Shown: in pieces, positions 6,728 through 30,718 of the stretch
Layout of the letters: each line of letters begins with the position of its first letter
Numbering within the stretch: position 1 is the stretch's first letter
NCBI GenBank assembly: GCA_013154175.1
Contig: JAADCZ010000042.1
Location: 1-34,247, forward strand
From: Thermodesulfobacteriota bacterium
GTDB lineage: Bacteria > Desulfobacterota > Dissulfuribacteria > Dissulfuribacterales > QOAL01
DNA length: 34,247 bases
Direction of reading: 5' to 3'
Translations under genes and position numbers: made by a program
Notes under the pieces: generated by a model
Databases searched by the model: none
What the model was told of the DNA's origin: nothing
What the model saw: the letters and a program-made list of their open reading frames with translations, nothing else

Positions 6728-7081
6728 GGGGGCGACACGGTTTCGACGAGGGTATGGAAGCTCAAGCTGCGTGCCGGGGTCCGCGACCTCGTTAAAAACG
6801 CGGAAAAAACACAAACGCCGACTCTGAATACGAGTACGCACTGGCTGCATAGTCAGCCACGTCCTGCAGGCCCTGCCTGTTGGACCTGTAGGGCGCCAAG
6901 CTAACAGGCTCGCCCGATCCAGTTACCTGCGCTGGAAAGGGTTAAACATTTTGCAGGTTAGCCCTGGAAAGATCCTGCCCAGATGGAGCTTTCCGGGCGA
7001 AAATGAAAAATCTGGGCTACGCACGTAGACGCTTGAGTGGAATGCTTTCGGACGCGGGTTCGACTCCCGCCGCCTCCACCA
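6728..7081 (+). ncRNA. ssrA: Transfer-messenger RNA (tmRNA, ssrA)
   Basis: The gene begins with GGGGGCGACACGGTTTCGACG and ends in a T-arm GCGGGTTCGACTCCCGC followed by CGCCTCC and an encoded ACCA. The first seven bases (6728-6734) pair with 7071-7077 (one G-T pair) to form the tRNA-like acceptor stem. The tag reading frame ends at TAG 6850-6852 and reads back as TNADSEYEYALAA from 6811, with the ALAA degradation signal typical of tmRNA tags. The exact resume codon (ACA 6811 or AAC 6814) is uncertain. Pseudoknot-forming inverted repeats follow the tag. With SmpB it rescues stalled ribosomes. This is the one-piece form. A T-rich run follows directly at 7082. Confidence 0.97.
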
Positions 7082-7377: not shown

Positions 7378-8373
7378 CTAATCATTGGTAGGGGCGCCGT
7401 CGGAAAATCCTTTGTATTGCCGAACGTTGAGGGCTTTCCATTTAAGGAGAGGCTGCTGTCTGATGCGTTTTTGGAGGGTTTTATCGGTGGTCAAAAGCGT
7501 CGCATCGATTTCGCCTTTATCGAGCAGTAAATCCAGAAATTCTCGCTCAGCATCATTGAAAGGCAATACTGCGGATAAGGCCTGCCGGCATTGGTTCACG
7601 AGCGTCTTTCCATAATTCTCAGCGTCCTTGGTTCCCTGCTTCGCACCGAGGCGGAGCGTAGGAATAAGTTGGTTTGCCAATTCCGCAGCGTCGAAATCCA
7701 CATCTTCGACCGAAACCGTGCGCCAGTCCTTCCGGTTCATCGCGCCGTAGACGACGAAAGCGATTCGAAGTCGTTCAAGGTCGAGACCGTACATGCGAAG
7801 AATTCGGAGACTGTCGAATAGGTCTCTGGCCTTACGACGTGATAGCAATGCCGCGAGTTTCCCTGCCGCAAGTTCATGAATATCCATAACCGGGATATTA
7901 GTGGCCCGCCAGGTGCCTAGTGGGTGGGAGTCCATCATCATGATTGGCCACAAAGGCACACGGTACATGAAGTTAATATCCACTTCGAGTTTGCCGCTTT
8001 GCCCGAAGGCACTTTGGTAGCGAAGCGACCACTTTCCTCCTGCATGTTCTTCCGGCACACGCCTGACCGTAAAACCCTCTCGTTTGAAAACTGCCTGCAC
8101 CGCCTGTTCGATCTTGGGACGCTCTTCAAGCATTGCATCCTTACTCTCGGCTCCCACGTAATTCAGGTCGATATCTACCGATAACCTTGGGATATCAAAG
8201 ACAAAGAGATTCAAAGCGGTTCCACCTTTGAGAACCAACTTCTTCTTTAGGAAAGGGTGGCTTTGCAAGGTATCGAGCAATCCCAGCAGGCGTGCGACCT
8301 TTTCGAGCACCTCCGGTCTGAAGCCGGTAGATTCCGCCTCGACGGCAAGTTTTTCGGCTGAGAGGAGTCTCAT
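7378..8373 (-). CDS. abiEii: AbiEii-type nucleotidyltransferase toxin
   Basis: A 331-residue protein of the AbiEii/AbiGii family, the toxin of type IV AbiE toxin-antitoxin and phage-exclusion systems. The nucleotidyltransferase core is visible: LVLKGGTALNLF followed by SVDIDLNYVG, then LEVDINFMYR, HELAAGKLAAL and RKARDLFDSLRIL. Related toxins transfer nucleotides, and MenT-type relatives target tRNA; which substrate is used here is unknown. I chose ATG 8373 because it overlaps the antitoxin stop (ATGA) and has GGAGG 5-6 bases upstream; a GTG at 8388 would add five glycine-rich residues. The antitoxin gene lies immediately upstream. The pair sits just downstream of the tmRNA gene, a common place for acquired DNA. 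Confidence 0.9.
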   Translation of the reverse strand: MRLLSAEKLAVEAESTGFRPEVLEKVARLLGLLDTLQSHPFLKKKLVLKGGTALNLFVFDIPRLSVDIDLNYVGAESKDAMLEERPKIEQAVQAVFKREGFTVRRVPEEHAGGKWSLRYQSAFGQSGKLEVDINFMYRVPLWPIMMMDSHPLGTWRATNIPVMDIHELAAGKLAALLSRRKARDLFDSLRILRMYGLDLERLRIAFVVYGAMNRKDWRTVSVEDVDFDAAELANQLIPTLRLGAKQGTKDAENYGKTLVNQCRQALSAVLPFNDAEREFLDLLLDKGEIDATLLTTDKTLQKRIRQQPLLKWKALNVRQYKGFSDGAPTND

Positions 8374-9176
8374 AACACCTCCGCCCACGTCCGTTCAAAC
8401 ACCTCTCGGGGAACCACTAGATTCCATTCCGAAACCAGGCGACCCGATTTCCTTTTGTCCCGGTCCAGGTAATGCGGCTGCCGCGGACGGAGAGCGTGGA
8501 GTGACTTGAGATGTTTTTCCTCGACCATTAAAGATTCGCGGTGCTGTTCCAGGAAGAAGCCAACTTTGGCAGCCGTAGTTGCATTTCCAAGCAGGAGAAC
8601 GTATTCAACCACCTTGTCAAGGTCGAAGAACTCAACCGATTCGAGGGACCGCCAAATCTCTTCCCAACCGCCGGAAAGATCCGGACGATTCAAGACGTCA
8701 ACCAGCGTTCGTTCCAAACTTGTGACACGGACCTCCAGGCCAGATCGGTCCATTGTGACGACTCCGAAGTCCTCCTTGCCTGCACGGCGAAGTGACTCAG
8801 GGAATCTCACGCCACGGAAAACATGGGAGCGGTATGTAAACGGACTTAGCGGACGGGAAGCTGAATAGATGAAATGCTCGTGGACAGTGTAAGCATGACC
8901 GTGAAACTCCAAGGCCGTGTGGTACGATAAGACAGCATCTTTAGTCAGTTTCGCAGCCACAAGAAATGGATCGACTGGATATGAAGCTGGATTGGCACCA
9001 GGCGGTACAACGGCGTAGAGTCCACGTCGTATGGAAATGACGCGCCCTGTTTTCTTGTAGTAGGCCAGCAAGGCCTCCTTGGTCCTGGGGCCAACTTTTC
9101 CACAGGAGGCGAGGTATCTGCTCATTTCTTCTCCGGTAAACACCGGATGTTTACGAAAGAACTCCTCATGCTTCAT
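8370..9176 (-). CDS. abiEi: AbiEi-type antitoxin / autorepressor
   Basis: A 268-residue protein with the two-part layout of AbiEi antitoxins. The N-terminal winged-helix part (residues about 1-55) contains FTGEEMSRYLAS and the strand pair GRVISIRRGLYAVVPPG. The larger C-terminal domain contains DPFLVAAKLTKDAVLSYHTALEFHG and the segment RVTSLERTLVDVLNRPDLSGGWEEI, both typical of the family. Family members block the AbiEii toxin and repress their own promoter. The start ATG 9176 is about 31 bases from the palindrome described below, which fits autoregulation. Its stop overlaps the toxin start by ATGA. Confidence 0.9.
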   Translation of the reverse strand: MKHEEFFRKHPVFTGEEMSRYLASCGKVGPRTKEALLAYYKKTGRVISIRRGLYAVVPPGANPASYPVDPFLVAAKLTKDAVLSYHTALEFHGHAYTVHEHFIYSASRPLSPFTYRSHVFRGVRFPESLRRAGKEDFGVVTMDRSGLEVRVTSLERTLVDVLNRPDLSGGWEEIWRSLESVEFFDLDKVVEYVLLLGNATTAAKVGFFLEQHRESLMVEEKHLKSLHALRPRQPHYLDRDKRKSGRLVSEWNLVVPREVFERTWAEVL

Positions 9177-9639: not shown

Positions 9640-10041
9640 CTACTCATTTCCTGCCTTTTCCAAGAGCCTGGCAATGGGGCGAAAGGCCTTGCACCTTTTG
9701 CACATGTCGATTTTTTGCCTTGGGTCGTCAGTTAGGCATTTGGCGCAGAAGGTGCCGCTGATGAACCAGCACAGGTTTCCCACATTAAACTCCCAGGCTG
9801 GGCAGCCCTTTTTCACCTCTTCGGAGCAACCATTCACTTCCCAGCAAGGTTGCAGGGCCTCTGTGACCCCTGTGAGCCGAGAGAGGAAGAAATAGATTTG
9901 TCTTTCGATGTGAAGTGGCACGGCCCTCCAGCCCTGCTCGTAACTCGAGACGGCCTTAACAGAAGTACCAAGGAGCTGTGCCATCTCCCTTTGGGTCTTG
10001 CCTAATATTCTTCTTGCGTGTGCAAATTCTGTTTTTGTCAT
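9640..10041 (-). CDS. XRE-type HTH regulator with eight-cysteine 'two-CW'-like domain
   Basis: A 133-residue protein. Residues about 5-42 form an XRE/Cro-like helix-turn-helix (ARRILGKTQREMAQLLG, then VKAVSSYEQGWRAVP). After a short helical linker comes a Cys-rich domain with C66, C72, C80, C91, C99, C102, C114 and C117, including PCWEVNGC, GCPAWEF, LCWFISGTFC and MCKRCKAFRP. The two CW pairs match the 'two-CW' domain seen in many Desulfobacterota regulators and sensors, which probably binds a metal or Fe-S cluster. It lies back to back with the selenocytochrome operon, with 194 bases between the two starts, so it is a good candidate to control that operon in response to redox state or a sulfur/metal ligand. 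That role is inference. Confidence 0.82.
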   Translation of the reverse strand: MTKTEFAHARRILGKTQREMAQLLGTSVKAVSSYEQGWRAVPLHIERQIYFFLSRLTGVTEALQPCWEVNGCSEEVKKGCPAWEFNVGNLCWFISGTFCAKCLTDDPRQKIDMCKRCKAFRPIARLLEKAGNE

Positions 10042-10184: not shown

Positions 10185-10235
10185 CCAAGCCTGATGTTTA
10201 GGCAAGGCGAATTTGGGAGAAGAGGAGGTATCCGA

Positions 10236-11585
10236 ATGAAGAAAGTAGTTTCCAAGGGATTGTTTCTGTCCATGTTCTTGTCCATGGTTCTGGCTGCGCT
10301 CTTTGCCTGGGCGGCGCCCTCAGAGGACCAGTCCGACTCGAGCGAATGTATCAACTGCCATACGGACCTGGAGGAGATGGACGACTACGGTGCAAAGGCG
10401 GCTAGTGCAGCGGCTGCCGTGGCCGGCTGAGGCGTCTCTGCGCCCCAGGTTAGGGGGCGCGACACCTACGGGGTTGCCAAGGATTTCTTGGACACCCCTC
10501 ATGGAGAGTTGGGCTGTAGATACTGTCACAAGGGCAAAAACGTAGATGACGAGGAAGAGGCCCACGAAGGAATCATCAAGGATCCGTCCGATGCCGGTGG
10601 AGGAGGAGTCTGTAAGGAGTGTCACGAGGACATAACCTCCACGTACAAAGACTCCATGCACTACAACCTCACGGGCATCATGGACATCGTCAAGACCATA
10701 ACCAAGCCCCACAAAATGGAAGACACCCTGCTGCCTGCTGCATGGAAGCTTGACTGTGCAGAGTGTCACGCAAGCTGCGGAAGCTGTCACGTTGCATGGC
10801 CCCATGTCTCAAAGGGCGGCCTTATAGACAGGCACAGATTCCAGAAGAAGCCCCCAATGGAAAAGACATGCTTTGGTTGTCACGGCTCCCGTTTCGCTGG
10901 TGAATACGTGGGATTCCTGGGAGAGACAGCCGATGTGCACTATGAAAAGGCTCAGATGGAATGCTACGACTGCCACAAGGGCTCACAGTTTCATGAAACA
11001 AAGCCCAAGGGTGTAAAGCGCTACTACGCAACTGAGACCCCAAGGTGTGAAAACTGCCATCCAGATGCTGTTCCTGGAAGGTCAAAGATTGCAATGCACA
11101 ATGCCCATGGGGAAAATGTTCTGGCATGTCAGGTTTGCCACGCAACGACCTACTTCAACTGCCAGAACTGCCACGTTTCCCTTGATGTAAAGGAGAAGGG
11201 CAAGATCAAGGTTATCTTCCCATCTGACCCACTTTACACCTTCAAGATTGGCAAAAACATCGATATCGGACCAAACAATCCGTACAAGTACAACTTGGTT
11301 CGTCACTCACCTATGCGTAAGGATTCCCTTGCGTCCCTGCGCTACTTCCAGGCCGTTCTCAAGGGTAAACCAGGTCCAAAAGACCTCATTTCCAACTGGG
11401 ATGCGCTTCCCACCTGGAACTCCGCCGCTGTTCACAGCATTCAGAGAAAGACCAAGCAGAATCAGTCCTGTAATTCCTGTCACGGGGTCAAGGAGCTATT
11501 CCTGACAAAGGATGACATAAGGCCCGAAGATCCCAAGGCGAATTACAAGATCGTGGTTGATGTGCCGCCAAAAATCGAAAGGTAG
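10236..11585 (+). CDS. Selenocysteine-containing 11-heme c-type cytochrome (in-frame TGA read as Sec)
   Basis: The frame runs from ATG 10236 to TAG 11583-11585 (449 residues) with a single in-frame TGA at 10428-10430, which would be Sec65. GAGGAGGT lies a few bases before the ATG, and residues 1-26 form a clear Sec-pathway signal peptide ending AWA. One CXXCH (CINCH, 38-42) precedes the TGA. Ten follow in the same frame: CRYCH (94-98), CKECH, CAECH, CGSCH, CFGCH, CYDCH, CENCH, CQVCH, CQNCH and CNSCH. The Sec sits in a flexible Ala/Gly-rich segment (AAAVAG-Sec-GVSAPQ). Continuous coding sense on both sides, a SECIS-like hairpin directly after the TGA, and selB in this window all favour readthrough over a broken gene. 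The mature protein should be periplasmic or outer-surface. Two rhodanese-like proteins and a beta-barrel follow in the operon, pointing to electron transfer coupled to a sulfur or selenium compound. Standard annotation would give a short fragment ending at 10430 and a second gene starting near 10488. Confidence 0.88.
10428..10430 (+). other. In-frame TGA, predicted selenocysteine codon (Sec65)
   Basis: TGA interrupts a reading frame that has a signal peptide and heme motif before it and ten heme motifs after it, with no change of frame. The codon that follows is GGC and the local protein context is VAG-Sec-GVS. Confidence 0.87.
10431..10466 (+). promoter_or_regulatory. Bacterial SECIS-like hairpin after the selenocysteine TGA
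   Basis: The upper stem is 7 bp: 10440-10446 (GCGCCCC) pairs perfectly with 10454-10460 (GGGGCGC). The 7-base loop is AGGTTAG, with G at positions 2 and 3; the AGGU start matches the loop of the E. coli fdhF element. Below the stem, a TCT bulge (10437-10439) gives the expected unpaired U. The lower stem 10431-10436 pairs with 10461-10466 with one C-A mismatch. The loop begins 16 bases after the TGA, at the near limit of the usual bacterial spacing. Confidence 0.82.
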
Positions 11586-11612: not shown

Positions 11613-12590
11613 ATGGAAAAGAGAACAATAATTAAAAATATTTTCTTGCTGGCTATTTTTACGGTCATTGCTTTTGGCCTAAACACACCTGTAAGCCTCT
11701 ATGCCTGGGGTGGTGTATCACCACTGGTGTCCACATCCTGGCTGGACAAGCATAAGGGGGACAAGAACGTCGTCCTGATAGATGTCAGGACCGAGGCCAA
11801 CTACGGCTTCGCACACATCCCAAATGCCGTAAGCATCCCTTATGGCAAGCTCGAACCAAAGTGTGCAAAGGAATGTTACATGATTCCCCCTACAAAGGAG
11901 ATAACCAGGCTGTTTCAAAACGCCGGGGTCAACAAAAATTCCCACGTGGTTGTCTACGCCCACGGTAACACCACCAGTGATGCATCAAAGGCAGCGGCCG
12001 CCTACTGGGTCTTGAAGGCCATGGGGCATAAGAAGGTCTCCATGCTCAATGGCGGCTTTACCAAGTGGACCTTTGAAGGCCGGGTGGTCACCAACGAGGT
12101 GCCAAAGGTCAAGAAGGGAAACTTCCAGGCCAAAAGGAACCCTGCTGCAGTAGCAGATTTTTCAGAGGTGGCCAAGGTGGTCCAGAAGGGTGGGGCCGTC
12201 CTGGTGGATGCCAGGAACTCTGTGCAGTATTTCGGACATGAAAAGAGAATGGATGTGACCTGTTACGGACACATCCCCGGTGCAATAAACCTGCCAGCGG
12301 ACTTCCTCAACAACTCTGGTGTCAACCGTGCACCAGCCACCATAAAGGACGAAAAGGATCTGGCAACAATGGTGGTGGGAGTTGGCATCCCCAAGGCCAA
12401 GTCCACTCCCATAATAGTTTATTGCAACACTGCACAGCTGGCTGGCCTCAACTATCTGGTGCTGAAAGACATCCTTGGCTACCAAGATGTAAAGGTATAC
12501 GACGGCTCCATGCTGGAATATTGCAAGGTCCGGGGAAAGCTTCCGGTTGAGCGTTTTTCCTGGAGCATCGGCTCGCTGAGAAATCTGTAG
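11613..12590 (+). CDS. Exported tandem-domain rhodanese (sulfurtransferase), active Cys in second domain
   Basis: A 325-residue exported protein with an N-terminal hydrophobic signal (about residues 1-31) and two rhodanese domains. The first (about 37-160) has VVLIDVRTEANYGFAHIPNAV and an active-site loop reading VVYAHGNTTSD, without Cys. The second (about 175-310) has VLVDARNSVQYFGHEK, YGHIPGAINLP and the loop IIVYCNTAQLAG with C271, the likely persulfide-carrying residue. Family members move sulfane sulfur to cyanide, thiols or partner proteins. GGAG lies just upstream of ATG 11613, 27 bases after the cytochrome stop. With the selenocytochrome before it and an outer-membrane barrel after it, it may deliver or receive periplasmic sulfur (or selenium) for the cytochrome; this is inference. 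Confidence 0.88.
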   Translation: MEKRTIIKNIFLLAIFTVIAFGLNTPVSLYAWGGVSPLVSTSWLDKHKGDKNVVLIDVRTEANYGFAHIPNAVSIPYGKLEPKCAKECYMIPPTKEITRLFQNAGVNKNSHVVVYAHGNTTSDASKAAAAYWVLKAMGHKKVSMLNGGFTKWTFEGRVVTNEVPKVKKGNFQAKRNPAAVADFSEVAKVVQKGGAVLVDARNSVQYFGHEKRMDVTCYGHIPGAINLPADFLNNSGVNRAPATIKDEKDLATMVVGVGIPKAKSTPIIVYCNTAQLAGLNYLVLKDILGYQDVKVYDGSMLEYCKVRGKLPVERFSWSIGSLRNL

Positions 12591-12612: not shown

Positions 12613-13566
12613 ATGCACCAAAGATTACGTTTTAACGTGGCCTTTTTGATAATTGCCGCTGTGCTTCTCTTGCATGGCCCCGTCATGGCCAGTGAGGCTG
12701 CACAGGTAAATGGATTGGTATCGGTTGAATGGCTTTCAAACCATCTGAACGATAAGGGCATAGTCATCCTGGATGTGAGGACGTTTCCCAAGTATCTGAA
12801 GAGTCACATTCCAGGAGCTGTCCGGGCCTTTGGTCCGTGGCAAAAGATGAATGACAAGTTCGTAGGCTTCATGGCGCCACCAGTGGATGAGCTGCAGGAT
12901 ATGCTCCAGAGCTATGGCGTATCGAACGATTCCCTTGTCATCATCTATGACCAGGGTCTCACCTCGACAGATACGGCCAAGAGTGCCAGGGCCCTGTGGA
13001 CCCTTCACTATCTTGGTCATGACAAGTGTGCCATCCTCAACGGTGGTTTCAATGCCTGGGAACAGAAGGAGAAACCCGTTACTGCAAAGCCTGCCATCCC
13101 TCTAAGGGGTGATTTCAAGGCAAATGTAGTGGCCAACAAGGTGATAACCCTGGACGAGGTGAAGCAGAGGCTCAAGTCCAAGACGAGCTGTTTTCTCGAT
13201 ACGAGGCAGCCCCACGAGCATTTTGGGCATGAGAAGAAGAGCTTCATCCCTCGCTATGGACATCTTCCTGGGTCACTGCTCATTCCTGCCGCCTACATAA
13301 CCATCGGCGGGCAGAATTTTTCACCAGCTTATCTCCGCACCACCAAGGAGCTCGGGGATATGGTCAGGGGGGCCGGAATCCCTTCAGACAAGAGTGCAGA
13401 GATAATTGTCTACAGCAACACAGGGCTCCAGGCTGCACTGGGCTACTTTGTGCTGAACAATGTGCTGGGCTACAAAAATGTCAGACTTTTTGATGGTTCC
13501 GTGCTCGAGGCATCGAAAGACAAGGATGTCCCCATGAAGAGATATTCGTGGGGATGGAACGACTGA
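12613..13566 (+). CDS. Exported tandem rhodanese-like protein lacking the catalytic cysteine
   Basis: A 317-residue paralogue of the preceding gene, with signal peptide (cleavage after about VMA, residue 26) and two rhodanese domains. The first loop reads IIYDQGLTSTD, the second IIVYSNTGLQAA: Ser268 stands where the neighbour has Cys271. Neither domain therefore has an active-site cysteine, so normal persulfide chemistry is unlikely. The fold marks remain (VILDVRTFPKYLKSHIPGAV, FGHEKK, RYGHLPGSLLIPA). It may bind a substrate or its active paralogue, or act as scaffold. The gene is preceded by GGAGAAGGAGGG and begins 22 bases after its paralogue, which suggests a local duplication followed by divergence. 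Confidence 0.87.
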   Translation: MHQRLRFNVAFLIIAAVLLLHGPVMASEAAQVNGLVSVEWLSNHLNDKGIVILDVRTFPKYLKSHIPGAVRAFGPWQKMNDKFVGFMAPPVDELQDMLQSYGVSNDSLVIIYDQGLTSTDTAKSARALWTLHYLGHDKCAILNGGFNAWEQKEKPVTAKPAIPLRGDFKANVVANKVITLDEVKQRLKSKTSCFLDTRQPHEHFGHEKKSFIPRYGHLPGSLLIPAAYITIGGQNFSPAYLRTTKELGDMVRGAGIPSDKSAEIIVYSNTGLQAALGYFVLNNVLGYKNVRLFDGSVLEASKDKDVPMKRYSWGWND

Positions 13567-13602: not shown

Positions 13603-14478
13603 ATGAGGAAACGTTGTTTTATGGTTGCTGTATCGTTGTTTGCTGCACTAGTGCTAATGGGATTTGAACAGGCCCAGGCGGGGGCACCTTTTACCAATGC
13701 AGAAGGTGTCGGGGGAGTGGCCTTGAATCCCATGGCCTACATCGCAAATCCAATGAAGAAGGGCGATAAAGGCCTTTTCGGACTTGGTATTGTGTCGAAA
13801 CCCCAGCTAGGCATCTGGAATATCAGGCTGTGCGAAAGCGGAGTCAACTGGTTCGCAGTTGGTGGTAACATATCCTTTTTCAACAGGCTCGAGCTTGGCT
13901 ATTCCCACGAGTTTGTTGATATCGATGGTGTCCAAAGCACGGTGGACAAGGATAACTTTTCCTTCAAGTTGAACCTGCTGAAGGAAAATGATTTTGGCTT
14001 GAAGTTCCTGCCAGCCGTATCCTTCGGCGGTATCTACAAGACCACCGATGCTGATGACAACTTCCCATTGAAGGACACGGAAGACATCGACTTCTACTTT
14101 GTTGCAACAAAGATGGTTCCTGGTCTGCCCGTCCCGGTAATATTGAACGCAGGTCTCTTGAATACCAAGGGATATGTCAGGGGCGTGTTGGGCTTCGGAG
14201 ACGACCGCGAATGGATATTCTTTGGAAACATAGACGTGGTCGTGTTCGAGAAGTTCATAGTAGGCTGGGAGTATGAGCAGGAAGCAGAGGTTGGTGATGT
14301 ATTTAAGGGCGAAAAGGGCATGAAACACACCACACATTCCATGTGGGAGACCCATATCGCCTGGATGTACAATGAGCATCTGACCCTGATCGGCTCCTAC
14401 GCCTATACGGGAGATAGCAAGTCAAGCGAGGCGGCATTCGATAGCGCCTACGTCTTGTCACTCCAGTACGCATTCTAG
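13603..14478 (+). CDS. Outer-membrane beta-barrel protein of the selenocytochrome operon
   Basis: A 291-residue protein with a signal peptide (cut after AQA, about residue 26). The rest alternates polar and aromatic residues in amphipathic strands and ends in SLQYAF, the C-terminal phenylalanine signature of outer-membrane barrels. About 250 mature residues would allow 10-14 strands, smaller than classical 16-18 strand porins. The start NAEGVGGVALNPMAYIANP may belong to a DUF-type barrel family that I cannot name with certainty. As last gene of the operon before a strong terminator it may carry a sulfur or selenium compound, or form the outer-membrane partner of the cytochrome. GGAGGGAGG precedes ATG 13603. 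Confidence 0.8.
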   Translation: MRKRCFMVAVSLFAALVLMGFEQAQAGAPFTNAEGVGGVALNPMAYIANPMKKGDKGLFGLGIVSKPQLGIWNIRLCESGVNWFAVGGNISFFNRLELGYSHEFVDIDGVQSTVDKDNFSFKLNLLKENDFGLKFLPAVSFGGIYKTTDADDNFPLKDTEDIDFYFVATKMVPGLPVPVILNAGLLNTKGYVRGVLGFGDDREWIFFGNIDVVVFEKFIVGWEYEQEAEVGDVFKGEKGMKHTTHSMWETHIAWMYNEHLTLIGSYAYTGDSKSSEAAFDSAYVLSLQYAF

Positions 14479-28738: not shown

Positions 28739-30718
28739 CTATGACTTTGACCTCAAGCGTCTTTTGTCTCCGATCCTGATGGTAACCTTCTTTGAGTCCA
28801 GATATTCCAGAAGTGGTATCATAAATTTTCTTGAAAGACCTCCGCAGAGCTTTCTGAATTCAGGTACGGACATTTCCTGGTGTTCCTTGAGATAATCAAC
28901 GACCCTTTGCTGAATGTCCTCGAGGGCATCTGGATGATAAAAGATTCCATCCTTTACCTTGACGAGTTTGCCCTCTCTTACAAGGAGGAGAAAGAACTGT
29001 TTGGCCTGTTCCTTGTCGCCATTTGGGCCCACTGCCTTCTCGATTGCTTCATCCATGGAAGGGGGTAAGAGACCCGCCTCCTTGAATATCTTTTCCAGTT
29101 TGGCCTTTATCCGTTCTTCCTCACCCTTGAGCTTGATCTTGTGGGTGGAAAGCCTGACGCTGTCCTTGTCTGAGGCAATCTTGCCCTTGCGACTTAGACC
29201 TTCCAGGACCTTGTTGAAAAGCTTTTGTATGGGGACCTTGGACGTGGCATCAAGACCACGGGAAACCCCTGTGCGTGTTGAGGCAGTCACTGGAAAGAGC
29301 TTGGACTTCAACTCCTCCTTGGGCATCGCCTCCACCAGGGGATTGTTCTTGTGGTATTCTTCCAGAATGGAAAGGGTCCGTTCCATGAGGTCCTCCAGGA
29401 CCTTCATGGCCACGAAGCGATCCTCTGCATCGAATTTTATTATCTTTCCAGAGCTGAGAAGGCCATCCAGGAGTTTCTTCAGGGTCTTTCCATAAAAACC
29501 TGTACGAATGGCGAGCTCTGAGCGTGAAAGGCCCCTGTAGCCTGCGTTTTTAAGGTGGATTTCAATGATTTCTTCTGGCTCACCCTTGGCGAGTCGTTCC
29601 AGCTCCTTCCACATCCACTCCTTGTGACGCTTCCTCTTTCGTGGAAGGGGGTTGAGTATGCGGCCTCCACCAATGGTGCGGATGGGCGAATAGGAGCGGA
29701 TGACGTACCTGTCCCCGGGAAGGACTGCCACAGGTTCTTCCAGCTTTATCTGGCAGTAGTTCATTGTGCCAGGTTCGATCTCGTCTTCCTTTAGAAGTAT
29801 TCTGCCAATGACCTCTGCGGTGCCCACGTGGAGCCTTACGGGCGCCCGATGTTTGAGGGGCTTTGCAGCACTCTTTAGATAATAGAACTCGAGGTCCAGG
29901 AGGTAGCTTGGCTGAAGGGAGGAGGGCAGGGCAACCACCATGCCCCTTTGAACCATCTCCTTTGAGATTCCTTGAAGGTTCAGGGCGGTTCTGAGCCCCG
30001 GCACGGTTGTTTCGCTCTCCTTGCCGTGTATCTGGATGTTTCTGATCCGGCTTTCGTGGCCTGGAGGGTAAATGGTGACCTCATCCCCAACAGAGGCAGT
30101 TCCGGATATGGCCGTACCAGTGACCACGGTGCCAAAGCCCTTCATCACAAAGCTTCGGTCCACAGGAAGCCTGAAGGGGCCCTTTACCTGCCGCCCAGGT
30201 ATCTTGGCAATTATCCTGTCCAGTTCCTTTAGGAGTTCATCTAGGCCTTGGCCAGTCACGGCCGAGACAGGGATGATTGGGCTGTCTTCGAGGAACGTCC
30301 CCTTAAGAAAATCCCGGACATCATCCCGCACGAGCTCCAGCCACTCCTCGTCCACCATATCTGCCTTGGTAAGCACCACGAGGCCATGTTTGACGCCAAG
30401 GAGCTGGCATATCTCAAGATGTTCCTTGGTCTGGGGCATCACACCCTCGTCGGCTGCAATCACAAGGGCCACGAGATCGACTCCGGCAACACCTGCCACC
30501 ATGTTTTTCACGAACCGCTCGTGGCCTGGCACATCCACCACACCCACCGAGACCCCGGATGGCAGATCCAGCTTGGCAAAACCCAGCTCAATGGTGATGC
30601 CCCGCTCCTTCTCCTCCTTCAGACGGTCGGTGTCCGTACCGGTAAGCGCCTTGACCAGGGTCGTCTTACCGTGGTCGATGTGGCCTGCAGTGCCTATGAT
30701 TACAGTCTTGGTTTCCAA
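28739..30718 (-). CDS. selB: Selenocysteine-specific elongation factor SelB
   Basis: A 659-residue translational GTPase. The G domain shows [19 protein letters not shown], the switch I region [26 protein letters not shown] and [12 protein letters not shown]-Tu-like domains II-III follow ([38 protein letters not shown]). The long C-terminal part (about 390-659) consists of winged-helix modules, ending [23 protein letters not shown], which bind the SECIS hairpin. This tail separates SelB from EF-Tu. It begins with TTG 30718, two bases after the metG stop, so it is translated from a housekeeping operon. selA, selD and selC are not in the window. Its presence directly supports Sec decoding of the TGA at 10428. 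Confidence 0.96.

Follow-up and report, generated by a model that had tools for sequence, protein, structure and literature searches.

An 11-heme c-type cytochrome with a predicted selenocysteine arm and a neighbouring rhodanese in a Thermodesulfobacteriota bacterium and its relatives

The locus and its reading frame

The window, which is the whole stretch of 34,247 nucleotides that we analyzed from a Thermodesulfobacteriota bacterium, contains an operon in which a gene for a multiheme c-type cytochrome is followed by genes for two exported rhodaneses and a probable outer-membrane barrel protein (Table 1). The cytochrome frame runs from ATG 10236 to the stop codon TAG at 11583-11585 and contains a single in-frame TGA. 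The original prediction had described such a lone TGA in a 449-codon frame, preceded by a strong ribosome-binding site, and our reading agrees with it in both respects and also in the number of heme motifs: of the 11 CXXCH motifs in the 449-residue cytochrome, one precedes the TGA and ten follow it. Pfam cytochrome c7/c3 matches above the cut-off were found for this protein, and it combines a probable signal peptide with multiple CXXCH motifs, as expected from a multiheme c-type cytochrome. A TTG-started frame that could be regarded as an alternative second gene is present at 10488-11585, yet it has no signal peptide, although the attachment of c-type heme requires export.

Table 1. Features of the cytochrome locus and the selB gene in the window
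Feature	Position	Strand	Basis
Divergent Cys-rich helix-turn-helix protein, possible regulator	9640..10041	-	HTH_3 8.3e-05
Ribosome-binding site AGGAGG	10223..10228	+	Read directly; 7 nt spacing to ATG 10236
11-heme c-type cytochrome with predicted selenocysteine at residue 65, 449 aa	10236..11585	+	Frame and homologues
Probable Sec-type signal peptide, residues 1-26, MKKVVSKGLFLSMFLSMVLAALFAWA	10236..10313	+	Judged by eye
Flexible Sec arm, residues 60-68, AAVAGUGVS	10413..10439	+	pLDDT <50 at 60-68
In-frame UGA, predicted selenocysteine, residue 65	10428..10430	+	TGA conserved in homologues
Predicted SECIS hairpin, 7-bp stem GCGCCCC/GGGGCGC, loop AGGUUAG with GG	10440..10460	+	Fold and homologue covariation
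Exported tandem rhodanese, last domain with Cys active loop CNTAQLAG	11613..12590	+	Pfam PF00581 3.2e-36; weak ExtH match
Second exported tandem rhodanese, Ser replaces active Cys (SNTGLQAA)	12613..13566	+	Pfam PF00581 2.3e-30
DUF3034 protein, probable outer-membrane barrel	13603..14478	+	PF11231 3.4e-16; signal peptide, C-terminal Phe
selB, selenocysteine-specific elongation factor	28739..30718	-	TIGR00475, 391.5 bits, cut-off 242.25

The divergent helix-turn-helix protein is possibly the redox-sensing regulator of the operon; its relatives adjoin the cytochrome gene in 7 loci of the window's close clade, and the DUF3034 gene is conserved in 6 loci of the same clade. Elsewhere in the window a tmRNA gene is located at 6728-7081 on the plus strand (RF00023, 219.7 bits), which is the sole Rfam match, and at 7378-9176 on the minus strand an AbiEii nucleotidyltransferase gene (PF08843, 2.9e-36) overlaps a 268-aa gene in the AbiEi position, resembling a type IV toxin-antitoxin pair.

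Evidence for selenocysteine at residue 65

Homologues were searched in 99 related genomes, and all 12 near-full-length homologues found there have exactly one TGA at the same column. When 84,980 species genomes were scanned, 281 relatives were confirmed and 80 of them retained. By whole-genome search the family occurs in 49 of 395 Desulfobacterota genomes, about one in eight, as well as in 12 of 350 genomes of the Chloroflexota, the phylum of Thermanaerothrix daxensis, and in 7 of 296 genomes of the class that includes an Acidimicrobiia MAG. The homologues with TGA at the same column are 31-88% identical and were assigned to three phyla. In members from the Chloroflexota and from the Acidimicrobiia-type class, the N-terminal sequences look by eye like lipoprotein signals (e.g. 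LLLLVAGCSS), which is consistent with a predicted surface anchoring of these members. Altogether TGA was found at the selenocysteine (Sec) column in 112 loci with 88 distinct 51-nt sequences; some of the loci are the same contig taken twice. The original prediction expected either Cys or Sec at this column; the TGA was indeed recovered, while a Cys form, which is a usual though not an obligatory trait of selenoproteins, was not found among the loci examined. The Sec motif, located between the first and second hemes, reads GxGU(G/A)G, or AGUG in the window's clade. Across an alignment of 58 sequences Gly64 never varies and Sec occupies position 65 in 57 of them, with flanks that vary freely, and the peptide from the TGA to heme 2 is conserved across the family.

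Three exceptions exist at the Sec column. In one locus (L130) a Tyr is found, the hairpin described below is lost and the cytochrome forms a fusion with a rhodanese, which indicates that some lineages can dispense with Sec. Another locus (L082) has TGG (Trp), and its intact hairpin does not differ from the one in L074, a relative with TGA; this Trp codon may have arisen recently or be an error in the sequence. The third (L175) is a distant 13-heme relative in which the whole Sec arm is missing. Loss of the Sec machinery was considered as the cause of the Tyr and Trp variants and rejected, since both genomes retain SelB. L082 and L094 also show very large heme ORFs, with 24 and 18 CXXCH motifs in an open frame, and these are apparent fusions with further heme domains.

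A hairpin had been claimed just after the TGA, and one is present there (Table 1) and covaries across the family. It begins 9 nt after the UGA in the window and 9-11 nt after it across the family, and its apical loop carries GG or GUU. Taken alone, the window hairpin does not stand out from dinucleotide shuffles in its fold (z -0.83); it does stand out from synonymous recodings, of which 2.5% fold equally well. Because the shuffle test of a single hairpin gave no signal, covariation was used instead. Among 589 possible helices in a set of 62 distinct sequences that do not belong to the window's clade, the top rank goes to a 6-bp helix starting 11 nt 3' of the UGA. Its cells are paired in 95.7% (shuffle mean 82.6, maximum 86.8) and double-change cells number 29 (shuffle mean 5, maximum 13), in comparison to shuffles that do not preserve relatedness. 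The strongest single point, which is independent of the shuffles, is a complete swap of the stem between GGCUCC-GUU-GGAGCC and GGAGCC-GUU-GGCUCC that turns the peptide VAPLEP into VEPLAP, so that the RNA pairing is preserved while the protein changes. In the window's clade (clade A) the paired positions vary little and add little covariation, and the SECIS argument thus rests on the wider family together with the structural agreement in clade A. Judged by comparison of sequences, this evidence is decisive for a predicted SECIS hairpin.

The machinery for Sec insertion is also in place. The claim that SelB is present was confirmed in the window itself (Table 1), and selA (623.6 bits), selD (375.1 bits) and a tRNA-Sec gene (selC) with the anticodon UCA were found in the genome; the absence of selA, selC and selD had been named beforehand as a reason to give up the Sec reading. 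The selD gene of this genome (L148; G000:C152:35-958) has its own in-frame TGA, and Sec-containing SelD is known. The UGA of the cytochrome gene is predicted, with near certainty, to be decoded as selenocysteine.

An AlphaFold2 model built with 58 sequences has a mean pLDDT of 83.5 and drops below 50 only at the Sec arm (Table 1) and at residues 26-28, the end of the signal peptide. The conserved TGA, the covarying hairpin, the full Sec machinery and this disordered arm together support the placement of Sec65 in a flexible, Gly-rich arm that links hemes 1 and 2, with Sec 29 residues ahead of heme 2. Foldseek with the cytochrome model against the PDB gave nothing at E 0.001 or better, and a structural template for the Sec site is therefore absent; a sequence search of solved structures returned only a weak cytochrome c552 stretch. 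All 33 heme-motif residues (11 Cys pairs and the heme His) are invariant in the 58 aligned sequences, and so are nine further His residues (89, 110, 142, 200, 235, 253, 288, 291 and 400). His357 occurs in 51 of the 58 and Met241 in 56. The comparison of eleven hemes with nine invariant His as distal candidates suggests that one or two hemes may have an open or unusual sixth site.

Rhodanese neighbours and the known selenoproteins

In 84 of 100 informative loci a rhodanese gene lies directly 3' of the cytochrome gene and in 3 others the two are fused, giving 87 of 100. This tally was done from the heme end of each locus, and a tally by ORF calling left 33 loci unassigned. L130 is an additional cytochrome-rhodanese fusion, and several downstream neighbours that were checked with Pfam are also rhodaneses. 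No rhodanese lies within 1.8 kb in the other 13 informative loci, which means that it is not strictly required in cis. In the Desulfobacterales, no rhodanese was found downstream of the copies L056, L077, L075 and L084. A radical SAM/SPASM gene is located divergently upstream of the rhodanese-less Desulfobacterales copies (L077 was tested), and in L056 a TerC family gene lies downstream of the cytochrome. Based on the linkage, the predicted seleno-cytochrome and the downstream rhodanese quite probably act as one module.

By sequence comparison, the nearest known seleno-cytochromes are ExtKL and the Sec-containing members of the octaheme family TIGR04315, and both are different families. In Geobacter sulfurreducens, ExtKL is encoded with the rhodanese ExtH and the outer-membrane porin ExtI (PMC5877670, PMC6148476). 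Like the window protein, ExtKL (NF040886, cyt_C_like_Sec, GSU2937-2936) is a multiheme c-type cytochrome of the periplasm for which one Sec is predicted, and it has rhodanese and porin neighbours. However, it has five hemes and its Sec is in NKAGHxIPDGUP after the heme domain, whereas the window protein has eleven and its Sec precedes heme 2. The window protein has no match to NF040886 and ExtKL was not found in the window genome. The original prediction had named related cytochromes of the Geobacter ext cluster as the first to be checked, and the Sec cytochrome of that cluster belongs to a different family. What is shared with the ext-type selenite/tellurite operon is the plan alone (Sec cytochrome, rhodanese and porin), while the components are not orthologous by curated cut-offs; of the two nearest families, only ExtKL is known to share this plan. 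The Sec subtype of TIGR04315, which appears as GenBank-annotated in a selenoproteome review (PMC13188914), is also multiheme and has its Sec (TGA) between heme 1 and heme 2, but it has eight hemes and its U, in the motif NxFU, stands 8-10 residues ahead of heme 2. The window protein has no match to TIGR04315 at E 0.001 or better, and it falls outside both the curated cut-off and the eight-heme definition. The octaheme family itself has a large TGA-bearing Desulfobacterota branch with NxFU (L187, L190, L191, L195, L197, L199, L203, L206, L210, L212 and L214).

Weak profile similarity to ExtM, a 12-heme protein of the ext operon (NF040943), exists in 36 of 58 family members (best 1.5e-13), and the window protein has no match to this profile at 0.01. 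No report of ExtM as a selenoprotein was found in the ext-cluster literature that was searched. Thioredoxin reductase has a C-terminal GCUG arm that receives electrons from FAD. The window protein would be like it in having a Gly-flanked selenol on a mobile arm; in the window protein, unlike in thioredoxin reductase, the arm is internal, has no adjacent Cys and would take its electrons from hemes. The hypothetical protein DG selenoprotein (NF049953), with its GUxG motif, is described with Cys homologues and no conserved domain (PMC12013277), and was rejected as an identity for the window protein, which has no NCBIfam match to it.

A possible function of the selenocysteine arm

The mechanism that we propose starts with the SECIS hairpin and SelA, SelB, SelC and SelD, which would direct the insertion of Sec65 at the UGA. 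Sec65, on its Gly-rich disordered arm (GxGUG), would swing beside the heme chain and work together with the rhodanese encoded directly downstream. Sulfane sulfur derived from thiosulfate, polysulfide or S0 may be held by the rhodanese as a persulfide on its Cys and handed to the selenol, after which electrons from the hemes could cleave the Se-S bond and sulfide would be released. The opposite direction is also possible, in which case the reaction would serve sulfur oxidation or disproportionation. We tentatively suggest, somewhat short of even confidence, that the Sec arm exchanges sulfane sulfur with the periplasmic rhodanese and electrons with the hemes, where the substrate, the direction and the Sec-rhodanese contact are what we infer. 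Among the roles raised in the original prediction, the conserved rhodanese partner favours a nucleophile for sulfane sulfur over a heme ligand or a redox switch. Against a sulfur module, the second rhodanese of the window operon has no catalytic Cys.

One possible option is that Sec65 is real but that the system reduces selenium or tellurium oxyanions, as in the Geobacter ext cluster. This main rival is unlikely, yet it has some weight, as the plan is the one of extHIJKL, the first rhodanese matches ExtH at 1.9e-23, and without ExtI the reduction of selenite and tellurite is impaired (PMC5877670). However, the ExtH match reaches 83 bits against a cut-off of 200, the window cytochrome is not ExtKL, and the lineages of the carriers would not seem to have such reduction as an obvious main trade. 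Another hypothesis, more doubtful still, is that Sec65, as a heme ligand or a redox sensor, serves to tune the cytochrome and is not a catalytic nucleophile. The shortage of invariant non-motif His (nine for eleven hemes) would leave room for it, and in the model a Gly-flanked loop might reach a heme; but an ordered region is expected for a fixed ligand while the arm is disordered, and the linkage to the rhodanese is left without explanation.

Two other readings are very improbable. A divergent ExtKL or a Sec-containing octaheme tetrathionate reductase (TIGR04315) would also be a Sec multiheme cytochrome, and weak matches to TIGR04315 exist in 10 of 58 family members (best 5.3e-08), yet the window protein matches neither model and differs from both in heme count (5 and 8) and Sec position. 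The reading of the TGA as a true stop, due to a sequencing error, a pseudogene or two genes with a start near 10488, is refuted in practice. It can point to the TTG-started frame and to the isolated hairpin not being extreme, whereas the recurrence in 112 loci, always as TGA, the conserved peptide between the TGA and heme 2 and the covarying hairpin all speak against it; moreover, a signal peptide would be missing from the second frame, and the first ORF on its own would be a fragment with a single heme.

No model of NCBIfam release 20 fits the 11-heme Sec cytochrome family, and the family is not listed in the table of a 2026 selenoproteome review (PMC13188914). We found no paper on such a cytochrome in a literature search, from whose coverage subscription papers were mostly absent. 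It could be, and we put it forward with reserve, that this is an undescribed selenoprotein family of at least three phyla, in which a near-obligatory selenol on a swinging arm exchanges sulfane sulfur with an exported rhodanese and electrons with eleven hemes, making it a new extracytoplasmic sulfur oxidoreductase. Ordinary gene callers would place the start after the TGA, so that the signal peptide and the first heme would be lost, and as no Cys form was found, the family would escape searches built on Cys/Sec pairs. Selenium beside a heme chain is rare. A cultured carrier of the family exists, Thermanaerothrix daxensis GNS-1 (L109), which makes 75Se labelling and proteomics feasible, and the pairing with the rhodanese offers a directly testable hypothesis on extracytoplasmic sulfur redox chemistry.
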